Shown: piece after piece, positions 27,277 to 45,887 of the stretch
Layout: the number at the start of each line of letters is the position of its first letter
Numbering within the stretch: position 1 is the stretch's first letter
NCBI RefSeq assembly: GCF_017876575.1
Contig: NZ_JAGIOE010000001.1
Coordinates: 3,142,443 to 3,206,442 of the forward strand
From: Paeniglutamicibacter psychrophenolicus
GTDB taxonomy: Bacteria; Actinomycetota; Actinomycetes; Actinomycetales; Micrococcaceae
Reading direction: 5' to 3'
Length of the DNA: 64,000 bases
Translations under genes and position numbers: made by a program
Notes under the pieces: generated by a model
Told to the model about the DNA's origin: nothing
What the model saw: the letters and a program-made list of their open reading frames with translations, nothing else
The model's database searches: none

Positions 27277-27469
27277 GGTCCCTGTTCCCTTTGTTCCCGT
27301 GGCGACATCGCCACCATGTTTCCGGGATTCAGCTTAGCCAGCAATGCGATCCGGACCACAATCCAAACCGGGCCAGGAGTCCGGGTCTCCGGCACCGAAT
27401 CCTTGGCGAGCCCCGCGCCGCCCGCATAGTGTGGGGAACAATCGTCCCGACCAGCAGGAAGAGATACCG

Positions 27470-29194
27470 ATGGGCACTGTCGCCGAAACCATGATCGCAA
27501 CCCTCAGGGCCAACGGGGTCAAACGGATCTACGGGGTGGCCGGGGACTCGCTCAACGGCCTAACCGATGCCATGCGCAAGGACGGTTCCATCTCCTGGCT
27601 CGGTGTGCGGCACGAGGAGAGCGCCGCGTTCGCCGCCGGGGCCGAGGCGGAAATGACCGGGAACCTGGCCGTGTGCGCCGGAAGCTGCGGACCTGGAAAC
27701 CTGCATCTGGTCAACGGCCTCTACGACGCGAACCGCAACCGGGTCCCGGTGCTGGCCATCGCCGCCCACATCCCCAGTTCCGAGATCGGCAGCAACTACT
27801 TCCAGGAAACCCACCCGGCCGAGCTCTTCCGCGAGGCCAGCGTGTTCTGCGAGGTCGTCTCCACACCGGAGCAGATGCCGCGCCTGCTGGAAATCGCCAT
27901 GCGCACCGCGATCGAGCGCCGCGGCGTGGCGGTGCTGGTGATGCCCGGCGACGTCGCACTGGCCCAGGCCGCCGGCACCCGGACCTCCGTGATCACCGCC
28001 AGCCGCTCCGCGGTGCTCCCCCACCCCGAAGACCTTGCCCGGGCTGCCGGCTTGCTCAATGCGGGCCGGCGGGTCACCATCCTTGCCGGCGCCGGCGTTG
28101 CAGGGGCCCACTCCCAGGTCATGGACATTGCCGGGCTGCTCGGCGCCCCGATCGTGCACGCGCTGCGCGGGAAGGAGCACATCGAGTTCGACAATCCCTA
28201 CGACGTCGGGATGACCGGGCTGCTGGGGTTCGCCTCCGGGTACCGTGCCATGGACGCGGCGGACACCATCCTGCTGCTGGGCACCGACTTCCCCTACCAG
28301 CAGTTCTACCCGCAGGACGCGACGATCATCCAGGTCGACGTGCGCGGGGAACAGCTGGGCCGGCGCACCAAGATCGACGCGGGCCTTGTCGGCACCGTGG
28401 CCGACACCCTGGAGGTCCTGGCGCCGCTGCTTGAGCGCAAGGCCGACACCACGCACCTGCAGGACGCGCAGAAGCACTACCGCAAGACCCGCGAAAAGCT
28501 CGACGACCTGGCCACCCCGACGCGCAAGGGCGCCAAGATCCACCCGCAATACCTGGCCCGCACCCTCGACGAGCTGGCCGACGAAGACACCGTGTTCCTG
28601 GCCGATGTCGGCTCGCCTGTCGTCTGGGCAGCCCGGTACCTCACCATGAACGGAAAACGCCGGCTGCTCGGATCCTTCAGCCACGGCTCCATGGCCAACT
28701 CGATCCCGCAGGCCATCGGGGTCCAGGCCACCCACCCCGAGAGGCAGGTCGTGACGCTCTCGGGCGACGGCGGGCTCGCCATGCTCATGGGAGACCTGCT
28801 CACCCTGGTCCAGTCGAAGCTGCCGGTGAAGATCGTGGTGTTCAACAACTCGTCGCTGAACTTCGTGGAGCTGGAGATGAAGGCGGCCGGGTTCGTCACC
28901 TTCGCCACCGACCTCGAAAACCCGAACTTCGCCGACGTCGCCACGGCACTGGGCATCCGCGGCTTCCGGGTGGAGCATTCCAAGGACCTGCCCGGGGCGC
29001 TGCGCGAGGCGCTGGCGCATGAGGGTCCGGCCCTCATCGACGTGGTGACAGACCGGCAGGAACTGTCGATGCCGCCGGCCATCACCGCCGAGCAGGCCAA
29101 GGGTTTCGCGCTCTATGCGATCCGCACCGTGATGTCCGGCAAGGGCGACGAGCTGCTGGATCTGGCGTCCACCAACTGGCGCCAGCTCTTCTAG
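27470..29194 (+). CDS. poxB: Pyruvate:quinone oxidoreductase (pyruvate oxidase)
   Basis: The 574-residue TPP/FAD enzyme has catalytic Glu50 (VRHEESAAFAAG), a central FAD domain (LAGAGVAGAHSQV), and the TPP-binding GDGGLAMLMGD...FNNSSLNF motif near 430. It oxidatively decarboxylates pyruvate to acetate and CO2, donating electrons to menaquinone at the membrane; the C-terminal tail (AIRTVMSGKGDELLDL) is the membrane-activating segment. AGGAAGAG precedes ATG 27470. A decayed copy of this tail lies at 32794-32940. Confidence 0.93.
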   Translation: MGTVAETMIATLRANGVKRIYGVAGDSLNGLTDAMRKDGSISWLGVRHEESAAFAAGAEAEMTGNLAVCAGSCGPGNLHLVNGLYDANRNRVPVLAIAAHIPSSEIGSNYFQETHPAELFREASVFCEVVSTPEQMPRLLEIAMRTAIERRGVAVLVMPGDVALAQAAGTRTSVITASRSAVLPHPEDLARAAGLLNAGRRVTILAGAGVAGAHSQVMDIAGLLGAPIVHALRGKEHIEFDNPYDVGMTGLLGFASGYRAMDAADTILLLGTDFPYQQFYPQDATIIQVDVRGEQLGRRTKIDAGLVGTVADTLEVLAPLLERKADTTHLQDAQKHYRKTREKLDDLATPTRKGAKIHPQYLARTLDELADEDTVFLADVGSPVVWAARYLTMNGKRRLLGSFSHGSMANSIPQAIGVQATHPERQVVTLSGDGGLAMLMGDLLTLVQSKLPVKIVVFNNSSLNFVELEMKAAGFVTFATDLENPNFADVATALGIRGFRVEHSKDLPGALREALAHEGPALIDVVTDRQELSMPPAITAEQAKGFALYAIRTVMSGKGDELLDLASTNWRQLF

Positions 29195-32793: not shown

Positions 32794-32940
32794 GTGCGGC
32801 CGCTGGCCAACGACGGCCGCTTCCTCGTCGACGTGATGACCGAACGGCAGGAATTCTCCACGCCGCCTGGCATCACCTCCGGGCAGGCCAGGGGCTCCGC
32901 CATGATGCGATCCGCACCGCCTTTGGCGCAAAAAGGCAAC
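32794..32940 (+). pseudogene. Relic of a poxB-like 3' end
   Basis: The frame from 32794 reads FLVDVMTERQEFSTPPGITS, GQARG, matching ALIDVVTDRQELSMPPAITA, EQAKG of the intact poxB. The match then continues in another frame as HDAIRTAFGAKRQ, aligned with YAIRTVMSGKG. One missing base at about 32900 accounts for the shift; GCGATCCGCACCG is identical in both. Only about 50 C-terminal codons survive. Confidence 0.65.
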
Positions 32941-33092: not shown

Positions 33093-33121
33093 TTGAACTG
33101 ACTTGCAGTCAGGACTATTGC
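33093..33121 (+). promoter_or_regulatory. Promoter of the carnitine operon with embedded operator
   Basis: A -35-like TTGAAC (33093-33098) and a -10-like TATTGC (33116-33121) are separated by 17 bases. The spacer holds the palindrome CTGACT-TGC-AGTCAG (33098-33112), so a bound repressor would block RNA polymerase. A transcript would start near 33128, about 26 bases before the regulator's ATG. Confidence 0.6.
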
Positions 33122-33153: not shown

Positions 33154-34032
33154 ATGCACGAACCCGTCAAGAGCCCATCCGCAATTGCCGATCGCACCCG
33201 TGAGGCCATCCGCAACACCGGCCTGCCCCAGCGCGAAATATCGAAGCTGACCGGCTTCGAGGAATCCAAGCTCTCCAAGTCCCTGCGCGGGACACGAAAA
33301 TTCACCAGCGAGGAAATCGTGGCGCTGGCCACCGTCACCGGTGTCACGGCCAACTGGCTGATCACCGGTTCCGACTCGGCGCCGGCACCCTCAGCGGCCC
33401 CCTCGCCCGGCATACTTCCGACCCGGCACCGGGAGGACGAAAAGCATGCCCAGCGCCGGCGCAGCATCATCAAGCGCGCCTGGTGGCTGTTCGCCCAGCA
33501 GGGCTTTGCCGCTGTTCGCATGGCCGACATCGCCAAGGATGTTGGGATCAGCACGCCGACCGTGCACTACTACTTCCCGACCAAGCAGGCCCTCTTCGCC
33601 GAAACACTGCATTATTCGGTGAAGCTCGCCTACGACCGCCAGGTCGCCGAACTTCAACCCATCTCCGATCCGGTGAGCCAGCTCAAGCGGCTGATCGAAC
33701 TGCAACTGCCGCTGGGCCTGGAGGGCCGCGCCGAATGGTCGATCTGGATGCAGACCTGGACCAAGCTGGCGGTCAACGAGGAGGGTCTGGACACCCACTC
33801 CGGCGGCTACCGGCGGTGGGTGACGACGGTGCGGGAGATCATCTCCGGCGGCCAGACAACCGGGCACTTCGTGGATCACGATCCGTCCATTCTCACCGCC
33901 GAGCTGACCGCCATGTTTGACGGCATGGGCATCCAGGTGCTGACCGGCCAACTGACTTCGAGTCAGATGTTCGCAAACATATGTGGGTACATCGACAGAA
34001 ACATCATCAAGAAGCAAGGAGCCACACCATGA
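33154..34032 (+). CDS. Chimeric XRE-TetR regulator of the carnitine operon
   Basis: This 292-residue protein joins two DNA-binding domains. Residues about 10-70 form an XRE-type HTH ([20 protein letters not shown]). After a proline/alanine linker, about 98-145 is a TetR HTH ([19 protein letters not shown]) followed by an all-helical ligand domain. TetR proteins are dimeric ligand-released repressors; the added XRE head is unusual. The gene leads the operon, its stop overlaps the BKACE start (ATGA), and the same 15-bp palindrome lies in its promoter and near its 3' end, arguing for autoregulation. Confidence 0.85.
33952..33966. promoter_or_regulatory. Second copy of the 15-bp operator, inside the regulator gene
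   Basis: CTGACT-TCG-AGTCAG lies in the 3' end of the XRE-TetR gene, 62 bases before the BKACE ATG. It matches the promoter copy at 33098 in both six-base arms and differs only in the middle three bases. It may act as an auxiliary operator or control an internal promoter. Confidence 0.55.
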
Positions 34033-34916
34033 GCCGCAAGATCATCGTCACCTGCGCCCTCACCGGGGCCGGGGACACCACCTCGCGCAGCGAGCACGTA
34101 CCGGTCACCCCGGACCAGATCGCCGCCGACGCCATCGCCGCCGCGCGTGCAGGGGCCTCCGTGGTACACATCCACGTCAGGGACATCGCCACCGGGCAGG
34201 GCTCGCGCGACGTGGCCCTGTACCGCGAGGTGGTCCGCCAGGTGGCGGCCTCAGACGTGGACCCGGTCATCAACCTGACCGCTGGCATGGGCGGGGACCT
34301 GTTCATCGACCCGTCGAACCCCACCGTGCACCTGCCCGGAACCGACCTGGTCTCCGGACTCGAACGCTTGGCGCACGTGGAGGAACTTCGCCCGGAAATC
34401 TGCACCATCGACTGCGGTTCGCTGAACTTCGGCGAAGGCTCCCAGCTCTACGTCAGCACCCCCGACATGCTGCGCGAGGGCGCGGCGCGGATCCGGGAAC
34501 TGGGCGTGAAGCCGGAAATGGAAATCTTCGACACCGGCAACCTCTGGTTTGCCAACGTCATGGTCGAGGAGGGACTCATCGCTCCCCCTCCGCTGTACCA
34601 GCTGTGCATGGGAATCCCCTACGGGGCCCCCGTCGACTCCGGCCTGCTCCAGGCCATGGTGAACATGCTGCCCGCCGGCGCCGAGTTCACCTCGTTCGCC
34701 ATCGGCCGCAACCAGCTGCCCTGGGTTGCCCAATCGGTGCTGCTCGGCGGCCACGTCCGCGTCGGCCTCGAGGACAACCTCTACCTCTCGCGCGGGGTGA
34801 AGGCCACCAACGCGCAGCTGACTGCGCGCGCCATCGACATCGTCGAGTCGATGGGCCACTCCGTGGCCACCCCCGACGAAGCCCGTGAAATCCTCAAGCT
34901 CGACAAGGCGGCCTAG
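34029..34916 (+). CDS. BKACE family enzyme (DUF849), probable dehydrocarnitine-cleavage enzyme
   Basis: The 295-residue TIM-barrel protein has the zinc-binding HIHVRD (His47, His49), [27 protein letters not shown] and the late [13 protein letters not shown] typical of beta-keto acid cleavage enzymes. BKACEs condense a beta-keto acid with acetyl-CoA and cleave it to acetoacetate plus a new CoA ester. With L-carnitine dehydrogenase immediately downstream, the likely substrate is 3-dehydrocarnitine, giving betainyl-CoA. The start overlaps the regulator stop by four bases. Confidence 0.9.
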
Positions 34917-34918
34917 GC

Positions 34919-35893
34919 GTGGAAAGCAACTACCCCGAATTCACCGACATCACCACCGTGGCCTGCGTCGGAGTGGGCACCATCGGCGGCGGCTGGGCCG
35001 CCTACTTCCTCTCCCGCGGGTTGGCCGTGCGCGCCTGGGACCCCTCGCCCGACGCGGAGGCGAAGCTGCGCCGGCTCATCGACGCCGCCTGGCCGGCGCT
35101 GAGCGCACTCGGCCTGGCCGAGAACGCGTCCAAGGACAACTTCACCGTCCACGCCGACCTGGCCGAGGCCCTGGCGGGCGTGGGGTTCATCCAGGAAAGC
35201 GCGCCCGAGGACCTTGCGCTGAAGCGGGACCTGCTGGCGCGGATCGCCGCGGCGGCCCCCGGGAACGTGGTCGTCGGCTCCTCCACCTCCGGCTACGGAA
35301 TGACCGAGATGGCCGTCGACGCCGCCGACCCGTCCCGGCTGGTCGTTGGCCACCCGTTCAATCCTCCCTACCTGATCCCGCTCGTCGAGGTCGTTGGCGG
35401 CCGGGCCACCGATGCCAAGGCCACCGAGTGGGCCTCGGGCTGGTACGAGTTCATCGGCAAGTCCGTGATCACCATGGACCGCGAGGTTCCCGGATTCATT
35501 GCCAACCGGCTGCAGGAAGCCCTCTGGCGCGAGGCCCTGCACATGGTCGACAACGGCGAGGCAACCGTGGAACAGATCGACCTGGCCATCACCGACGGAC
35601 CCGGGCTGCGCTGGCCGCTGCAGGGCCCCATGCTGACCTTCCACCTGGCCGGGGGCGAGGGCGGCATGGCCCACATGCTCGACCATTTCGGTCCCTCGCT
35701 GAAGTCCCCCTGGACCCGGCTCGAGGCCCCTGAACTGACGGACAAGCTCCGCAAGGACGTGATCGACGGCTGCGACGACGAGGCCGACGGACGCACCATC
35801 GCCGAGTTGGTCGCCGCCCGCGATGCGGCGATCATTGCCGTGCGCCAGGCGATCGAGGGCATCGGGCAGCCCGGCCGGGAGCGCAACAAGTGA
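34919..35893 (+). CDS. L-carnitine 3-dehydrogenase
   Basis: The 324-residue 3-hydroxyacyl-CoA dehydrogenase-like enzyme begins with VACVGVGTIGGGWAAYFLSRGL (NAD-binding GxGxxG at 18-25), then GHPFNPPYLIPLVEVVGG and FIANRLQEALWREALHMV, matching the L-carnitine dehydrogenase subgroup. It oxidises carnitine to 3-dehydrocarnitine with NAD+. A GTG start lies two bases after the BKACE stop. Its own stop overlaps the thioesterase GTG (GTGA). Downstream genes supply uptake. Confidence 0.9.
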   Translation: MESNYPEFTDITTVACVGVGTIGGGWAAYFLSRGLAVRAWDPSPDAEAKLRRLIDAAWPALSALGLAENASKDNFTVHADLAEALAGVGFIQESAPEDLALKRDLLARIAAAAPGNVVVGSSTSGYGMTEMAVDAADPSRLVVGHPFNPPYLIPLVEVVGGRATDAKATEWASGWYEFIGKSVITMDREVPGFIANRLQEALWREALHMVDNGEATVEQIDLAITDGPGLRWPLQGPMLTFHLAGGEGGMAHMLDHFGPSLKSPWTRLEAPELTDKLRKDVIDGCDDEADGRTIAELVAARDAAIIAVRQAIEGIGQPGRERNK

Positions 35894-36330
35894 GCCTGCC
35901 CCCATACCGCTGCTCCGTGAAGCCCGACTGGATCGACTACAACGGGCACATGTCCGAGGCCTACTACGTGCTGGCCTTCGGGGACGCGACCACCGCTGCC
36001 ATGGACGCGCTGGGCATGGACGAGTCCTACCGCCGCTCCAGCGCCCGCTCCCTCTACACGGTCGAAGCGCATGTTCGCTACCTGCGGGAGGCTTCCCTCG
36101 CCGAGGAGCTCGAAATCACCACCGTCATCGTTGCCGCGGGACCAAAGAAGCTGCACCTGGCCCATGAAATGCGCCGAGGGGCCGAACTCATTGCCACGGA
36201 AGAAGTGCTGGGCCTGCACGTGGACCAGGCCACCGGTAGAACGGTTCCCTTCCCGACCGACATCCTGGGGCGCATCGCCGGACACCAGCACGGAACCCCG
36301 GATTGGAGCGGCCGGTCCATCACAGCCTGA
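35890..36330 (+). CDS. Hotdog thioesterase, probable betainyl-CoA thioesterase
   Basis: The 146-residue single hotdog protein has the active-site motif DWIDYNGHM (Asp16, Asn18, Gly19, His20) followed by YYVLAFGDATTAAM and VEAHVRYLREA, as in 4-hydroxybenzoyl-CoA thioesterase-like enzymes. In carnitine pathways a gene of this type releases glycine betaine from betainyl-CoA. The GTG start overlaps the dehydrogenase stop by four bases. Confidence 0.85.
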   Translation: MSLPPYRCSVKPDWIDYNGHMSEAYYVLAFGDATTAAMDALGMDESYRRSSARSLYTVEAHVRYLREASLAEELEITTVIVAAGPKKLHLAHEMRRGAELIATEEVLGLHVDQATGRTVPFPTDILGRIAGHQHGTPDWSGRSITA

Positions 36331-36364
36331 CCCCGTCGCGCCCTTCACGAGAATCGAGTACGCC

Positions 36365-37966
36365 TTGAATTCCGCTACATCACCATTTGAACGAACGCCG
36401 GGCACCGGGCCCGCACCAAGCCGCCGAGCGCTGCTGGGCGGTGGAGTGGCCCTGGGACTGGGCTTGCTCCTCACCGCGTGCGGTTCGTCCGAGGCCTCGG
36501 TGCTGGAAGCCCCCGCCGGGGAACCGCTGAGGGGAGGATCGCTGCGGGTGGGCCTGGCAGGCGGCGGTGCCGCTGACTCGCTTGATCCCCACTCCCCCGT
36601 CAGCACCACCGACATCGCCCGCGTGGTGAACTTGTACGAATCGCTGCTGTACCGGGACGAGGATTTCGCGCTCAAGCCCCTGCTGGCCCTCAGCGCCGTC
36701 CCGGATGCCACGGCCAGGGTGTGGACCGTGAAGTTGCGGCCCGGGGTGAAGTTCCACGACGGCCGGCCCGTCACCGCCACCGACGTGGCCGCCACCTTTG
36801 CCCGGGTCACCAATCCGGACGATCCCAAGAGCGGGGCCGCTGCCCTCTCGATCCTCGACAAGGTCAAGGTCATCGACGACCTGACCGTCGAGTTCAGGCT
36901 CAACACGCCCAGCGCCACGTTCGATGATTCGCTGGGGCAGTACGCGCTGGGCATCGTCCCGGCGGATTTCGATGTGGCCCACCCCGTCGGCACCGGCCCG
37001 TTCAAGGCCTCCAGCTTCGACCCCGGGCTCCGCTCGGTGTTCGTGCGCAACGACGGCTACTGGCGCGATCAGCAACCGTACCTGGATGAACTGGTCATCC
37101 TGAATTTCTCGGACGACGACGCCATGCTCAATGCCCTGCTGTCCAGCCAGGTCGATGCGATCGGCCAGATCCCGCTGGCCCTGCTGGAAGTCATCGCCGC
37201 CGACCCCAGAATCAGCATCCTGAATTCCGAGACCGGGGCCTGGCTTCCGTTCACGATGCGCATCGACAAGGCGCCCTTCGACGACGTCCGGGTGCGCCAG
37301 GCTTTCCGCTTGGTGGTGGACCGGCAACAAATGATCGAACAGGTGTTGAGCGGCAACGGAGCCTTGGGCAACGACCTCTACGCACCATTCGATCCGGGCT
37401 ATGCCGGCAGCCTGCCCCAACGCACCCAGGACATCGGCAGGGCCAAGGAACTGCTTGCCGAGGCCGGCTACCCCGACGGACTGGACATCGAATTGGTGAC
37501 GGCACCCATCCAGGCCGGTGCCGTGGAAGCGGCCCAGGTGTTCGCCCAGCAAGCCAAGGCGGCAGGGATCCGGGTCAAGATCCGCAGGGTGGACACCACC
37601 ACCTTCTTCGGCGACGACTACCTCTCATGGACCTTCGCCCAGGACTTCTGGTACACCCGCAACTTCCTGCCCCAGGTCAACAACAGTTCGCTGCCCACCA
37701 GTCCGTTCAACGAAACGCATTGGGACGACCCGGAATTCCTGAAGCTTGTCGAGGCCGCCGCCACCGAGGTCGATGAAACCAAGCGCAACGCACTGATCAC
37801 CAAGGCACAGGAGATCGAATACGAGCGCGGCGGATACATCATCTGGGGCCACCCCAACCAGGCGGACGCCTACCAAAAGTACGTGGCTGGGTTGATTCCG
37901 AACAAGACCGGCCTGGCACTGTCCGGATTCGAATTCCGCCGCGCATGGATCGGAGTTACCAAGTGA
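36365..37966 (+). CDS. ABC transporter substrate-binding lipoprotein (SBP_bac_5)
   Basis: The 533-residue protein has a twin-arginine-like SRRALLGGG (Arg20-21), a hydrophobic helix and lipobox LLTAC with lipidated Cys39. The mature part carries YESLLYRDEDFALKPLLA, VWTVKLRPGVKFHDGRPVTA and VGTGPFK, the dipeptide/oligopeptide-binding family signature. It starts at TTG 36365, 34 bases after the thioesterase. The family binds peptides, nickel, and also opines and quaternary-amine derivatives, so an acylcarnitine-like ligand is reasonable but inferred. Confidence 0.9.
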   Translation: MNSATSPFERTPGTGPAPSRRALLGGGVALGLGLLLTACGSSEASVLEAPAGEPLRGGSLRVGLAGGGAADSLDPHSPVSTTDIARVVNLYESLLYRDEDFALKPLLALSAVPDATARVWTVKLRPGVKFHDGRPVTATDVAATFARVTNPDDPKSGAAALSILDKVKVIDDLTVEFRLNTPSATFDDSLGQYALGIVPADFDVAHPVGTGPFKASSFDPGLRSVFVRNDGYWRDQQPYLDELVILNFSDDDAMLNALLSSQVDAIGQIPLALLEVIAADPRISILNSETGAWLPFTMRIDKAPFDDVRVRQAFRLVVDRQQMIEQVLSGNGALGNDLYAPFDPGYAGSLPQRTQDIGRAKELLAEAGYPDGLDIELVTAPIQAGAVEAAQVFAQQAKAAGIRVKIRRVDTTTFFGDDYLSWTFAQDFWYTRNFLPQVNNSSLPTSPFNETHWDDPEFLKLVEAAATEVDETKRNALITKAQEIEYERGGYIIWGHPNQADAYQKYVAGLIPNKTGLALSGFEFRRAWIGVTK

Positions 37967-38922
37967 TCACCCGAATGATAGCCAAACGGCTGCTGGTCAG
38001 CCTGATCATCCTCTTCATCGTTTCAGTGCTGGTGTTTGTGGCAACGCTGCTGCTGCCCGGCGACCCGGCCCAGGCCATCCTGGGCCAGCAGGCCACCCCC
38101 GAACGGCTGGCCGCACTGCGCGAGCAGATGAACCTCAACGACCCGGTCTTCGTCAGGTACTTCACCTGGCTCGGCGGCCTGTTCACCGGAAACCTCGGAT
38201 ATTCGGCAGCCACCGGCGGTCCCGTCACCGCACTGCTGGCCGACCGCATCCAATCCTCGCTGGTGCTGATGGGCCTGGCCGCACTAATTTCCATTCCGGT
38301 CGGCATCATCGTTGGCACCTTCTCCGCCCTGAAGCGTGGGCGCGCCTTTGACAACGCCACCACCGGCGTTTCACTGGTGCTGGCTTCACTGCCCGAATTC
38401 GTGATCGGCATCGGGCTGGTTGCGTTGTTCTCGACCTCCGTGTTCAAGATCCTTCCCTCGGTGACCATGGCACCGCCCGGCGAGGCGGTGTGGAACTATC
38501 CGGTGCAGCTGGTGCTGCCCACCATCACCCTCGCCCTGGTGGTGACCCCGTACATTGTCCGGATGATGCGCGCCACCATGCTTGAGGTCCTCGATTCCGG
38601 GTTCGTGGAGATGGCACGCCTCAAGGGTGTGCCCGAGCGCCAGGTGGTGCTGCGGCACGCGGTGCCGCACGCATTGGCCCCGGTCGCGCAGGTCATCGCG
38701 ATCCAGCTGGCCTGGATGGCCGGCGGCGTGGTCGTGATCGAATTCCTCTTCAGGTACCCCGGCATCGGCCAGGCCCTGGTGGATGCGGTCGCCAACCGCG
38801 ACGTGCAGGTGGTGCAGGCGCTGTCCATCCTGATTGCCGCGGCCTACATCGTGGTCAACCTGCTGGCCGATTTGGTGGGAATCTTCACGAATCCGAAACT
38901 ACGCACGGAGAAAGCCGCATGA
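37963..38922 (+). CDS. ABC transporter permease (DppB type)
   Basis: The 319-residue permease has six predicted helices, an N-terminal LLVSLIILFIVSVLVFVATLLLPGDPAQ segment and the ATPase-contact loop EMARLKGVPERQVVLRHAVPHAL. A GTG start overlaps the binding-protein stop (GTGA). It forms the channel together with the next gene. Confidence 0.92.
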   Translation: MITRMIAKRLLVSLIILFIVSVLVFVATLLLPGDPAQAILGQQATPERLAALREQMNLNDPVFVRYFTWLGGLFTGNLGYSAATGGPVTALLADRIQSSLVLMGLAALISIPVGIIVGTFSALKRGRAFDNATTGVSLVLASLPEFVIGIGLVALFSTSVFKILPSVTMAPPGEAVWNYPVQLVLPTITLALVVTPYIVRMMRATMLEVLDSGFVEMARLKGVPERQVVLRHAVPHALAPVAQVIAIQLAWMAGGVVVIEFLFRYPGIGQALVDAVANRDVQVVQALSILIAAAYIVVNLLADLVGIFTNPKLRTEKAA

Positions 38923-39800
38923 GCACCGTCGATAATGCAGTTGAACAGGGCGTTGCCGTCTCCCGCCCGCCGCGGCTCCTGGCGCGGATGATGCGCCAGC
39001 GGCAAGCCAAGGTCGGCATGGTCCTGACCCTGGCCGTGCTGCTGGTCGCCCTGGCCGGGCCGCTGCTGCTGCCCTGGCTGACCGGGCACACCAGCACCGA
39101 GTTCACGGGGCGCCCGTTCACGGACACGGGAATGTTCGGAACCGACAACCTGGGGCGGGATGTGCTCTCGCGCTTCCTGGACGGCGGGTTGCGACTGATC
39201 ATCTATGCGGCGCTTGCCACCGCGCTGGGCATGGTCGTCGGGGTTGCCGTGGGCATGACCGCTGCCTATTCCCGCGGCCGGGTCGATGCACTGATCATGC
39301 GCGGCAACGACGTGCTGCTGGCCCTGCCGCAGCTGGTCTTCGCACTGCTGGCCATCACCGTCCTCGGCCCGCAGGGCTGGGTGCTCGTGGTGGTCATCGG
39401 GATCACCCACGCCCCGCGCATTGCCCGGGTCACCCGTTCGGCCACCGCGTCGGTGATCACCGAGGACTACATCCGTGCCAGTGAAATGTACGCGGCTCCG
39501 AAGTGGAAGATCCTGCTCACCGAGGTCCTGCCCAATATCACCGGTCCGCTGATGGTCGAACTCGGGTTGCGCATGACCTACTCGATCGGCTTTGTGGCTG
39601 CGCTGTCCTTCCTTGGACTGGGCATGCAACCGCCCACCGCGGACTGGGGGCTGATGATCAACGAAAGCCGGATCGCGCTTGTGGTCCAGCCCTGGGGCGT
39701 GCTCCTGCCCGTTGCGGCCATCGCCGTGCTGACCGTGGGAACCAACCTCCTGACCGACTCGCTCGCGCGGGCCTCGGCCAACATGAATGCGGGGAACTGA
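38919..39800 (+). CDS. ABC transporter permease (DppC type)
   Basis: The 293-residue permease has six helices, the DppC landmark FGTDNLGRDVLSRFLDG near 74-90 and the EAA-type loop YIRASEMYAAPKWKILLTEVLPN. It overlaps the DppB-type gene by four bases (ATGA). An N-terminal charged tail precedes the first helix at about 32-53. Confidence 0.92.
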   Translation: MSTVDNAVEQGVAVSRPPRLLARMMRQRQAKVGMVLTLAVLLVALAGPLLLPWLTGHTSTEFTGRPFTDTGMFGTDNLGRDVLSRFLDGGLRLIIYAALATALGMVVGVAVGMTAAYSRGRVDALIMRGNDVLLALPQLVFALLAITVLGPQGWVLVVVIGITHAPRIARVTRSATASVITEDYIRASEMYAAPKWKILLTEVLPNITGPLMVELGLRMTYSIGFVAALSFLGLGMQPPTADWGLMINESRIALVVQPWGVLLPVAAIAVLTVGTNLLTDSLARASANMNAGN

Positions 39801-39802
39801 GC

Positions 39803-41539
39803 ATGAGCACCAACACCATTGAAGCCGAGGTCACCACCAGTGCACTGTGCGCCACCGACCTGCGGGTGGAAACCGAAGCCGGGGTGGAAATCCTGCACGG
39901 GATCAGCTTCACCCTGCAGCCCGGGCGCATCCTGGCCCTGGTCGGCGAATCCGGCTCGGGCAAGACCACCGCGGGACTCGCCTGCATGGGGCATTTCCGG
40001 CAGGGGCTGGCCAAGGGCACCGGGACGGTGTCCCTGGGGGACGGGGAAACGGGAAACATCCTGGATTTGCCGGATCACCAATTGCGGCGCTTGCGCGGCA
40101 AAACCATCTCCTACGTGCCCCAGGACCCGGCGCTGTCGCTGAACCCGTCCATGCGCATCGGCGAGCAGATTGCCGAGACCCTGCGCGTGCACCAAATCGG
40201 TGCCACCGATTCCGAACGCCGGCTGCGGGTTGCCGAGGTCCTGGCCGAGGTTGGACTGTCCAACGACCGCGCCTACCAGCGTCGCTATCCCCACCAGCTT
40301 TCGGGCGGTCAGCAGCAGCGCGTGGGCATTGCCATGGCCTTCGCCTGCCGCCCGTCGGTGATTGTGCTCGACGAGCCGACCACCGGCCTGGACGTCACCA
40401 CCCAGGCCGTGGTGCTGCAAACAATCGACGAATTGGCCGAACGGCACCAGGTTGCGGGGCTCTACATCACCCACGATTTGGCCGTGGTGGCGCAGATCGC
40501 CGACGAGGTCGCCGTCATGCTCGAGGGCGACATCGTGGAGCACGGGGACACCGACCAGGTGCTCTATTCTCCGCGGCACCGTTACACCCGCAGGCTTCTT
40601 GCCGCGGTTCCCGACCTGGCCGGCAAACGCCGGGTGGGCCAGGTGGAGGCAATCACCGGCGAACAGCCGCTGGTCGTCCCCGGCCCGCACGGTGTCCCGG
40701 ACACCACCGGCGCCATATCCCAGGTTGATGACGCCAAGCTGTTGACCGGCACCGGGCCCCGGGAAACCCCTGCTGCGGCTGATCCGCAGCCACTGATGCG
40801 CGTGCGCGACCTGTCCCTCTCATACGGGGAACACAAGGTCCTGGACGGGATCGGCTTCCAGCTGCTCGAAGGCGAGTCAATGATGCTGCTGGGCGAGTCG
40901 GGGTCGGGCAAGACCACGCTCTCTCGCTGCGTGGCGGGACTCAATGACGAATACACCGGCTCGATCGAGCTGTTCGGCGAGGAACTGGCCACCGGCACGA
41001 GGGCACGTTCCCCCGAGGACCGCCGCCGGATCCAGTACGTTTTCCAGTCGCCGTTCTCCTCGTTGAACCCGCGCCGGACGATTGCCGAGTCAGTGGGCGT
41101 CCCGTTGCAGATGTCCGGAATCAGCGACAAGCGCAAGCGCCGCGCACTGGTGCTCGAAGCCCTGGACCAGGTCAAGCTCGGCGAACGCTTCATGGAGCGC
41201 CGCCCCGGGGACCTCAGCGGCGGTGAACGCCAGCGTGCGGCGATTGCCCGCGCCCTGGTCAACGCCCCCTCGCTGCTGGTCTGCGACGAGATCACCAGCG
41301 CCCTGGATGTCTCGGTGCAGGCCTCGATACTGGATCTGTTGCGCACGCTGCAGACGGACCACAACATGTCGATGCTCATTGTCACCCACAACATTGCCCT
41401 GGCCCGGCACATTTCCCAGCGTCTGGCGGTCCTGCAAAAGGGCAAGATCGTGGACATCGGAACCACCGACGATGTCCTGGACAACCCGCAGCACCGCTAC
41501 ACCCAGGAACTGCTGGCCAACGTCCCGACATTCAAGTGA
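39803..41539 (+). CDS. Fused dual ABC ATPase (DppD-DppF type)
   Basis: The 578-residue protein contains two complete ATPase domains: first Walker A GESGSGKTT at 48-56, signature LSGGQQQR near 168 and Walker B VIVLDEPT; second Walker A near 364, signature LSGGERQR near 472 and Walker B LLVCDEIT. Each half carries H-loops (THDLAVV, THNIALA). Instead of separate D and F subunits, one chain energises the importer. The start is two bases after the permease stop. Confidence 0.92.
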   Translation: MSTNTIEAEVTTSALCATDLRVETEAGVEILHGISFTLQPGRILALVGESGSGKTTAGLACMGHFRQGLAKGTGTVSLGDGETGNILDLPDHQLRRLRGKTISYVPQDPALSLNPSMRIGEQIAETLRVHQIGATDSERRLRVAEVLAEVGLSNDRAYQRRYPHQLSGGQQQRVGIAMAFACRPSVIVLDEPTTGLDVTTQAVVLQTIDELAERHQVAGLYITHDLAVVAQIADEVAVMLEGDIVEHGDTDQVLYSPRHRYTRRLLAAVPDLAGKRRVGQVEAITGEQPLVVPGPHGVPDTTGAISQVDDAKLLTGTGPRETPAAADPQPLMRVRDLSLSYGEHKVLDGIGFQLLEGESMMLLGESGSGKTTLSRCVAGLNDEYTGSIELFGEELATGTRARSPEDRRRIQYVFQSPFSSLNPRRTIAESVGVPLQMSGISDKRKRRALVLEALDQVKLGERFMERRPGDLSGGERQRAAIARALVNAPSLLVCDEITSALDVSVQASILDLLRTLQTDHNMSMLIVTHNIALARHISQRLAVLQKGKIVDIGTTDDVLDNPQHRYTQELLANVPTFK

Positions 41540-41547
41540 GGAACACC

Positions 41548-42726
41548 ATGAATGAACCACGTGAAAAGCCCTTTGCCGGCCACAACGACGGATTGCCCCA
41601 GGCCGGGTTCGAGATGCTGTCTGGGGTCTTCGAGCGGCATCTGGCGGCCGCGGAAGGCGGCATGGCACTGTGCGTGTACCGCGAGGGCCTGCCCCTGGCC
41701 CGCTTCTACGGAGGCACCACCGTCAGGGAAGGCGACTCCCCCGCCGCAGGCACCGGATTCTCGCGCCCTTGGACGGATTCAACGATGGCTGTCTTGTTTT
41801 CCGGGACCAAGGGCCTGATGGCCACCATCGCCGCGATATTGATTGACCGCCGGCTGCTGGACCCGGACGCCACCGTGGCCACCTACTGGCCTGAATTCGC
41901 CGCGGCCGGGAAGCAGGACGCCACCGTCGCCCACATCCTGGGCCACACCGTGGGACTGGTCTACGTCGATCCGGATCCAGGGCCCGGAACCCGCTACGAG
42001 AACCGGAAAATCGCAGGGGTCCTGGCCGACCAGGCTCCGCTGTGGGCACCCGGGACCAAGGTCGCCTACCACGCGCTGACCTACGGCTACCTGGTGGCGG
42101 AGCTGTTCTTCCGCATCACCGGCAAGGGGCCCGGGCAACTGGTGCGCGAACTGCTGGCCGAGCCTCTGGGACTCGACCTGCACTTGGGGCTCCCCGAGGA
42201 GCTTGACCCGAGGGTCGCCACCATATTCCGCGACGGGAACTACGCGATCTCGACATTCCTGCAGGACCCGGAACGCCGCAAGATCGTGGACCGGATGTAC
42301 GCCGGCTCGTTGACCGGAGCCGATGACCCGTTCAACTCCGTGGCCATGCGGCGTGCCGAAATGGCCGCCGGCGGGGCCATCGCCACCGCCGACGCCATGG
42401 CCTCGCTGTATTCCCACTTGGCGGCACCGGAGTCCCCCCTGGTTTCTGCCCACGCGCTGGCCACCTCTATCGCGACCTGGTCCGAGGGCGTGGATGCGGT
42501 CAACGACCGCCCGCTGCGCTTCGGGCTTGGCTTCGAGCTGGCCGATCCGCTGGGGACCTACGGTCCGGTCACCCCGGCCTTCGGCCATTCCGGAGCCGGA
42601 GGCGGGTTGCACGGGGCATGGACCGAGAAGAACATTGGCTTTTCGTTTTTGACCAACGAAATGCTTGCAGAGGATCAGGACCGCCGGGCCAAGGACCTGC
42701 TGGGGGCCCTGGCCCGCACGGTGTAA
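41548..42726 (+). CDS. Cytosolic serine hydrolase (beta-lactamase/EstB-like)
   Basis: The 392-residue penicillin-binding-like hydrolase has nucleophile Ser85 in SGTKG (SxxK), a YHALTYGYLV second motif, and HSGAGGG near 350 as the third. No signal peptide is present, so it acts inside the cell. GAGGAAC precedes ATG 41548, nine bases after the ATPase. As the last gene of the carnitine operon it may hydrolyse an imported ester such as an acylcarnitine. That substrate is my inference; family members also cleave other esters or D-peptides. Confidence 0.85.
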   Translation: MNEPREKPFAGHNDGLPQAGFEMLSGVFERHLAAAEGGMALCVYREGLPLARFYGGTTVREGDSPAAGTGFSRPWTDSTMAVLFSGTKGLMATIAAILIDRRLLDPDATVATYWPEFAAAGKQDATVAHILGHTVGLVYVDPDPGPGTRYENRKIAGVLADQAPLWAPGTKVAYHALTYGYLVAELFFRITGKGPGQLVRELLAEPLGLDLHLGLPEELDPRVATIFRDGNYAISTFLQDPERRKIVDRMYAGSLTGADDPFNSVAMRRAEMAAGGAIATADAMASLYSHLAAPESPLVSAHALATSIATWSEGVDAVNDRPLRFGLGFELADPLGTYGPVTPAFGHSGAGGGLHGAWTEKNIGFSFLTNEMLAEDQDRRAKDLLGALARTV

Positions 42727-42737
42727 GTCCATCCGCT

Positions 42738-42771
42738 GCGCCCCGGAGCTCCGGGAAGGTTCCCGGGGCGC
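42738..42771. terminator. Terminator at the end of the carnitine operon
   Basis: GCGCCCCGG (42738-42746) pairs with CCGGGGCGC (42763-42771), with an inner CCGGG/CCCGG possible in the loop. It lies 12 bases after the hydrolase stop, between convergent genes. Confidence 0.7.
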
Positions 42772-42824
42772 GGCTTCATGCCCGACCGGTGCCGCGGAGC
42801 TTCCGTGGATGCGCTTCCCCATTC

Positions 42825-45426: not shown

Positions 45427-45887
45427 TCATTCGGGCTCCGGCGGGGCACCATCGCTTCCACTGAGCACATCGACCGCACCCTTCCCGTCGAGTGGAAAAC
45501 GGCAGGCGGTCAAATGCGGCACGGTGCCGACAGCCGTGGCAGCGGCGGTTGCAGCCGCCAGCTCCGCTGCCGGCAACGTAACCGATCCTCCCCCAGGCTG
45601 CAGCGGCGGGACCACCCGCGCGTAGATCTCCTGCGCCATGGGACACCTGGTGCGGAAGCCGCAGCCGCTGGGCGGATCCATGGCCGAGGGCAGCTCGCCG
45701 CGCACCCCCAGCTTGGCCTTGCTGCGTTGCACCACAGGATCCGGGGTGGGGATGGTGTCGATCAAACCGCGGGTGTAGTGGTGGTGCGGGTGGGAGTAGA
45801 TCTCCGCGGCGGGGCCCAGCACCTCAACCACCCGGCCCAGGTACATCATGACGATGACGTCTGAAGGGTAGCGGACCACCGACAGGT
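45427..45887 (-). pseudogene. C-terminal fragment of an oligopeptide ABC ATPase
   Basis: The frame begins abruptly at HDLSVVRYPSDVIVMMYLGR, the H-loop of Opp/Dpp ATPases, and continues through EVLGPAAEIYSHPHHHYTRG and a cysteine-bearing FRTRCPMAQ tail (oligo_HPY). The Walker A, signature and Walker B sequences are missing upstream, where the low-GC mobile-element zone starts. The breakpoint is near 45890. No ribosome-binding site remains. Confidence 0.8.

Follow-up and report, generated by a model that had tools for sequence, protein, structure and literature searches.

An importer of the peptide type and a family VIII-type esterase in a predicted carnitine degradation operon of Paeniglutamicibacter psychrophenolicus suggest use of O-acylcarnitines

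What does an importer of the peptide type bring into the cell when it is encoded together with enzymes for the breakdown of carnitine? The question is raised by nine plus-strand genes that span positions 33154-42726 of a 64,000-nucleotide stretch of the Paeniglutamicibacter psychrophenolicus genome (henceforth the window), as defined by calling of open reading frames (ORFs), reading of the sequence and Pfam matches. They encode a regulator, three predicted carnitine enzymes (BKACE, an L-carnitine dehydrogenase, CDH, and a thioesterase; together, the trio), a complete ABC importer with its substrate-binding lipoprotein (SBP), and a serine hydrolase, SerH. We propose, with a probability of roughly 0.6, that this operon serves the use of O-acylcarnitines by the cell, with short-chain esters, acetylcarnitine among them, as the most likely substrates; that an acylcarnitine is both the ligand of the importer and the substrate of the hydrolase we infer from genomic context alone. 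In such a pathway the lipoprotein and the Opp/Dpp-type importer would bring the ester in, and SerH, a cytosolic esterase of family VIII, would split it into a carboxylic acid and L-carnitine; CDH would oxidise L-carnitine to 3-dehydrocarnitine, from which BKACE, with acetyl-CoA, would form acetoacetate and betainyl-CoA, and the thioesterase would free glycine betaine from the latter. An XRE-TetR protein would repress from two palindromes until a compound of the pathway binds to it. The features of the operon are, in order:

33098..33112, no strand assigned: putative operator 1 (CTGACT-TGC-AGTCAG), 56 bases 5' of the regulator start
33154..34032, plus strand: regulator with an N-terminal XRE-type helix-turn-helix, then TetR_N, then a BetI-type (TetR_C_6) domain (Pfam)
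33952..33966, no strand assigned: putative operator 2 (CTGACT-TCG-AGTCAG), within the 3' end of the regulator gene, 77 bases 5' of BKACE
34029..34916, plus strand: BKACE, CdhC-like (PF05853, 323 bits)
34919..35893, plus strand: CDH, L-carnitine dehydrogenase-like (CdhA-like), 3HCDH, GTG start (Pfam; NF005471)
35890..36330, plus strand: betainyl-CoA thioesterase-like protein (CdhB-like), 4HBT_2, GTG start (Pfam; NCBIfam)
36365..37966, plus strand: SBP of the peptide/nickel family, SBP_bac_5 (PF00496, 272.6 bits), with a TTG start codon chosen by judgement
37975..38922, plus strand: permease 1, DppB/NikB type, BPD_transp_1 (Pfam, NCBIfam)
38919..39800, plus strand: permease 2, DppC/NikC type, BPD_transp_1 (Pfam, NCBIfam)
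39803..41539, plus strand: fused two-domain ATPase of GsiA-like arrangement (PF00005 in two stretches, two oligo_HPY)
41536..42726, plus strand: serine hydrolase SerH, family VIII carboxylesterase/class C beta-lactamase fold (PF00144)
42735..42774, plus strand: GC-rich hairpin without a T run, 3' of the last gene, a weak candidate for the operon end

Four of the junctions between the genes are 4-base overlaps, and the remaining gaps measure 2, 34, 8 and 2 bases. The nine-gene set is found again in identical order in relatives, which is beyond chance. A preliminary description of this DNA had taken the nine genes for a single operon, and the ORFs, the Pfam matches, the tight junctions and the shared order in relatives all bear this out.

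The trio is predicted to encode the enzymes that lead from L-carnitine to glycine betaine, and its synteny with the cdhCAB cluster of Pseudomonas supports this assignment, which the preliminary description had also made. The three genes are contiguous and homologous to that cluster; in Pseudomonas canadensis (locus L139; L numbers denote loci and G numbers genomes) they stand in the same order, with identities of 63, 51 and 40% for BKACE, CDH and thioesterase, respectively. BKACE is 61-63% identical to its counterparts in Pseudomonas loci, or 61-65% when Burkholderia and Caballeronia loci are counted, and its HxH and RxGxED motifs, presumably of zinc and catalytic roles, line up with the Kce structure 2y7d. 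The top NCBIfam match of CDH is L-carnitine dehydrogenase (NF005471), at 337 bits versus a cut-off of 414; the scores are 372 and 328 bits for orthologues from two other actinobacterial trio loci and 663 for that of P. canadensis. Because the cut-off is missed, the name CDH rests on synteny and not on score. In a CDH-thioesterase fusion model the thioesterase matches the C-terminal portion (114.6 bits; whole model, 592), as does the Pseudomonas thioesterase gene (137.6 bits). The three carnitine steps, as assigned here from homologues, would be those of the dehydrocarnitine/betainyl-CoA route described in the accessible part of PMC12482172, according to which a Sinorhizobium dehydrogenase also turns betainyl-CoA into betaine.

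A precedent for an ester hydrolase in such a setting is the P. aeruginosa carnitine operon caiX-cdhCAB-hocS, which, in the portion of PMC5806209 available to us, combines genes of the BKACE-CDH-thioesterase type, an uptake component and HocS, an acylcarnitine hydrolase for short chains; acetyl- and butyl-carnitine are cleaved by HocS according to an excerpt of PMC5979481. Gene order was compared in P. canadensis L139, where an AraC/DJ-1 regulator is followed by CaiX, BKACE, CDH, thioesterase and a gamma-butyrobetaine-hydroxylase-like gene. The systems differ in uptake, which relies on the CaiX binding protein with CbcWV in P. aeruginosa, whereas the window operon has a complete Opp/Dpp-type importer, and in regulation, which in Pseudomonas is by CdhR (AraC/DJ-1 in L139) and in the window by the XRE-TetR protein. 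They also differ in the hydrolase, since SerH is a PF00144 protein, unlike HocS, which we take to be an alpha/beta hydrolase.

SerH can be placed among the family VIII carboxylesterases by its PF00144 fold, by its SxxK and Tyr motifs, which are presumably those of the family, and by being nearer to esterases than to beta-lactamases. The five best PDB matches of its structure model (pLDDT 86) are all family VIII-type esterases (5gkv, 7y3z, 8j5v, 3zyt and 5gmx), with TM scores of 0.78-0.83 and identities of only 25-31% in the structural alignment; to our knowledge none of the five acts on carnitine esters. S89-x-x-K92, Y178 and H351-S-G are invariant in 15 of 15 SerH sequences, and no signal peptide is visible by eye. 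A search of the literature, with little coverage of subscription journals, retrieved neither a paper on a family VIII-type esterase acting on carnitine esters nor a dedicated bacterial importer of acylcarnitines in the material it could reach.

A hydrolase regularly accompanies importer and trio. After removal of duplicates (L199=L073, L183=L079, L226=L049), importer and trio occur together in 36 loci besides the window; these include three pairs from near-identical genomes, and two loci end at contig ends, leaving 34 that are untruncated. An ester hydrolase is present in 32 of the 34 (SerH in 22, SerH2 in 6, the ABH46 type in 2 and the ABH53 type in 2), so that four groups with two unrelated folds fill this place. 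The preliminary description had suggested import of an acylcarnitine, its hydrolysis and oxidation of the carnitine released, and had named homologous loci without importer and hydrolase as evidence to the contrary; the tally runs the other way, and together with the HocS precedent it makes the suggestion, as a reading of context, a well supported one. SerH2, of the rearranged clusters described below, is a PF00144 protein (by Pfam for Nocardioides currus and Isoptericola cucumis) too distant for SerH to detect. The ABH46 type comprises the hydrolase of L046 (PF07859 by Pfam) and a 38% homologue beside the importer in L129, the ABH53 type that of L053 (PF00561 by Pfam) and a 63% homologue that lies upstream on the opposite strand in L042; in L046 and L053 the replacement stands directly after the ATPase, which is the usual place of SerH. 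Among 394 genomes of the class, SerH at 57% identity or higher occurs in four, the window included, always within the importer operon; the next match is at 37% (193 vs 369 bits), and among the matches listed the weaker ones start at 37% near full length and reach 44% over parts. In eight Burkholderia/Paraburkholderia loci, ABH46 homologues (32-37%) start no more than about 110 bases from the thioesterase match, on the same strand, just where the published operon has hocS. As a control, Pfam was run on the neighbours of 25 actinobacterial trio loci that lack the importer, 124 ORFs in all (9 of 133 ORFs, and with them L082, had been dropped, mostly for length): counted by ORF and not by locus, PF00561 was found in 4 and BCCT in 5, and neither PF00144 nor PF07859 in more than 2.

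The importer has the make-up of the Dpp/Opp/Nik type by Pfam, with an SBP_bac_5 lipoprotein, two BPD_transp_1 permeases and oligo_HPY ATPase domains, and the lipobox-like Cys39 of the SBP is invariant across 19 aligned sequences. It shares the SBP and the two permeases with the Dpp, Nik and GsiABCD importers, and the two fused ATPase domains with GsiA; it differs from them in that its SBP and permeases fall under the cut-offs of all listed models (best equivalog score 159 of 600 bits for the SBP, 256 of 350 and 190 of 300 for the permeases). The ATPase exceeds the NikD, NikE and PRK11308 cut-offs with a score summed over its two domains. A reading of the SBP binding pocket was dropped, the structure model being poor (mean pLDDT 45).

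The preliminary description had also proposed co-occurrence of importer and hydrolase with the pair of BKACE and CDH as a check. A CDH orthologue of at least 69% identity, split in one case, is encoded in 30 of 295 Micrococcaceae genomes, the window's among them, and all 29 other loci were inspected: the importer adjoins the trio in 24 of the 30, and the trio stands without it in 6. A BCCT match is found in five of these six stretches (in L054 about 7 kb away), and Pfam confirmed two. All nine genes recur in Prauserella isguenensis, Amycolatopsis saalfeldensis and a Pseudonocardia, and eight of the nine, without SerH, in Sciscionella marina; the whole operon is also carried by a 138 kb plasmid of Citricoccus sp. 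SGAir0253 (L226, NZ_CP039425.1), and therefore can sit on different replicons. The rearranged order importer-hydrolase-trio is seen in Nocardioides currus, Isoptericola cucumis and Agilicoccus flavus, and L193, related to these clusters, has an IclR gene beside the importer. An Opp-type importer (SBP 30%) adjoins the trio even in a metagenome-assembled Rhodospirillum genome (L129). An alignment scan with BKACE, in which close relatives of the window genome were possibly left out, gave matches to BKACE and CDH in 77 of the best 80 named loci and a CaiX-type OpuAC binding protein in 31; the importer accompanies the trio in 8 of the 80, and the trio lacks it in 69. These 69 have CaiX in 31 cases and BCCT in 8, two of which also have CaiX, and 26, many of them from Streptomyces and Acidimicrobiia, show no match to CaiX, BCCT or the PotA query. 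In the actinobacterial loci L056-L059, which resemble the window in BKACE (76-81%), CDH (70-74%), thioesterase (48-59%) and, in three of the four, the regulator, a BCCT gene is present instead of the ABC importer.

Two variants of these clusters were noted on the side. In L064 (4852-7970, genome G200) a second dehydrogenase-BKACE pair has as neighbours a gene for a Rieske oxygenase and a suspected BCCT gene; the dehydrogenase scores lower, at 271 bits, and BKACE, at 508 bits, exceeds the 430 required by the 3,5-dioxohexanoate transferase model. The pair may encode a different pathway, and L064 might also be the carnitine locus of G200. On two alphaproteobacterial plasmids (L229, L230), CDH and BKACE are accompanied by another kind of ABC importer and by genes for an enoyl-CoA hydratase/carnitinyl-CoA dehydratase, an acyl-CoA dehydrogenase and a member of the CoA ligase family, which may indicate an alternative route or substrate.

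In the 394 class-level genomes there are 23 SBP relatives at 42% identity or above besides the window. Seven are found with the trio, one with SerH, two with a carnitine acyltransferase, 11 without the trio or SerH/SerH2, and the last two among other genes or on a short contig. SerH accompanies the importer without the trio in L184, in a genome (G514) without a BKACE match. In L200 and L201, from the same genus, the importer lies tail-to-tail with a PF00755 carnitine acyltransferase, a family that occurs in 41 of the 394 genomes; these two (L200 14604-16304, L201 8456-10240) are divergent bacterial members, at about 290-300 bits where the other listed matches exceed 500. An ABH46 homologue on the opposite strand lies near two of the 11 trio-less importers (L186, L188). 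An invariable link between importer and carnitine genes can be dismissed, since 11 of the 23 relatives have no such link. SBP relatives of 43-45% identity were also seen on Rhizobium plasmids, one beside genes for a DMFA2_C-domain protein, S-formylglutathione hydrolase and class III alcohol dehydrogenase, another beside an arginase gene.

Several of these observations weigh against acylcarnitine uptake. The 11 importers without trio or SerH/SerH2 come from genomes of which six have a BKACE of 68-70% elsewhere and five have no BKACE orthologue; since so many relatives sit without carnitine genes, acylcarnitine import is not established for the entire clade. The hydrolase comparison is biased, because its queries were taken from importer loci, and PF00144 is a promiscuous family. 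It is conceivable, if rather unlikely, that the importer serves for free L-carnitine, or for both carnitine and its acyl esters, with the hydrolase as an accessory that matters only sometimes: importer and trio are found with none of the hydrolases sought in L075 and L193, BCCT, the class that carries free betaine or carnitine, is present in most importer-less loci of the family, and a relative of SerH occurs with BCCT and no importer in L056, alone among L056-L059. Set against this, 32 of the 34 loci have a hydrolase, which in some has been exchanged for one of unrelated fold and not lost, and the host already has six BCCT genes.

Less probable still is the import of some other carnitine-releasing conjugate (an amide, a gamma-butyrobetaine derivative or a carnitine derivative resembling a peptide or a lipid). 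Peptide-family importers often carry larger solutes, the hydrolase groups are compatible with several ester types, and a gene for a TAP-like alpha/beta hydrolase, a class of secreted peptidases, lies about 2-5 kb from five of the 11 trio-less importers (L189, L190, L194, L196, L198) and may hint at peptides as ligands of those five; none of the nine genes, however, is a gamma-butyrobetaine enzyme by Pfam, and both HocS and the carnitine acyltransferase neighbours indicate ordinary acylcarnitines. That the dehydrogenase and BKACE are merely related to carnitine enzymes, and act on a different beta-hydroxy acid or quaternary amine, seems to us improbable. BKACE families accept many beta-keto acids, and both the window CDH and its two actinobacterial orthologues miss the curated NF005471 cut-off; yet the three genes keep the Pseudomonas order, the thioesterase matches the carnitine CDH fusion, and BCCT genes occur in five of the six importer-less trio loci of the family. 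The excerpt of PMC12482172 assigns the betainyl-CoA step of P. aeruginosa to DhcAB and not to a thioesterase, for which reason the thioesterase step proposed here rests on domain similarity.

The acylcarnitine reading assigns control of the operon to the regulator, which would act as a repressor, judging from its TetR family and context. The protein holds two DNA-binding domains, an XRE-type helix-turn-helix being fused to a complete TetR protein, and its homologues accompany trio loci whether or not these have the importer. The two palindromes are perfect (CTGACTnnnAGTCAG) and lie one 5' of the regulator and one 5' of BKACE; at no more than one mismatch the window has 2 matches versus 0.12 expected. 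Conservation was assessed in 28 Micrococcaceae upstream regions, window included, which are related and so not independent. At least 8 of 10 positions are matched in 61% of them at the non-coding operator 1 (5.6% after shuffling of letters), mostly 47-60 bases before the start, and in 82% at operator 2 (7.3%), which lies in coding sequence. Its codons include two that the operon seldom uses, ACT (0.9% of the Thr codons) and AGT (2.9% of the Ser codons). Beyond the Micrococcaceae the matches are scattered and partial only.

A broader proposition is that a clade of the peptide/nickel importer family is dedicated to O-acylcarnitines and coupled to carnitine degradation in one operon, with the role of the hydrolase filled by four groups in two unrelated folds, and that in another actinobacterial genus it stands beside a carnitine acyltransferase instead; we hold this tentatively, at somewhat less than even odds. 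The chemistry of carnitine breakdown is known, and with the caiX-cdhCAB-hocS precedent the operon is less novel than it would otherwise be; apparently new are the combination of importer and hydrolase, the importer type, the esterase family, the XRE-TetR regulator with its family-conserved palindrome and the recurrent exchange of one hydrolase for another. Host tissues are rich in acylcarnitines, as stated in the available text of PMC5806209. If the proposal is true, an actinobacterial operon labelled generically in one annotated record (3-keto-5-aminohexanoate cleavage protein, serine hydrolase) acquires a function, the peptide importer family gains a new class of substrate, and one enzyme step provides a case of repeated replacement by non-homologous enzymes.

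The host genome has no PF00755 match. It is probably able to use betaine, since one locus combines GbcA/GbcB-like genes (394 and 241 bits, below the cut-offs), the glutathione-independent formaldehyde dehydrogenase FdhA (above its cut-off) and a BCCT gene. A second BKACE of this genome (L001) adjoins, on reading of the sequence, an SDR gene and a glycerate-kinase-like gene. A sigma-70 promoter scan found none, and a terminator scan found 3 candidates versus 5.8 expected; the stretch with the hairpin after SerH has a folding energy of -33.1 kcal/mol (z -1.4), equalled in stability by 24 of 200 shuffles, and is thus weak. Upstream of the operon, 32794-32930 resembles by eye the C-terminal end of a thiamine-diphosphate (pyruvate-oxidase-like) gene at 27344-29194 and is likely a partial duplicate. 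Downstream, the minus-strand ORF 45427-45879 looks by eye like the C-terminal portion of a Dpp/Opp ATPase and may be a remnant.

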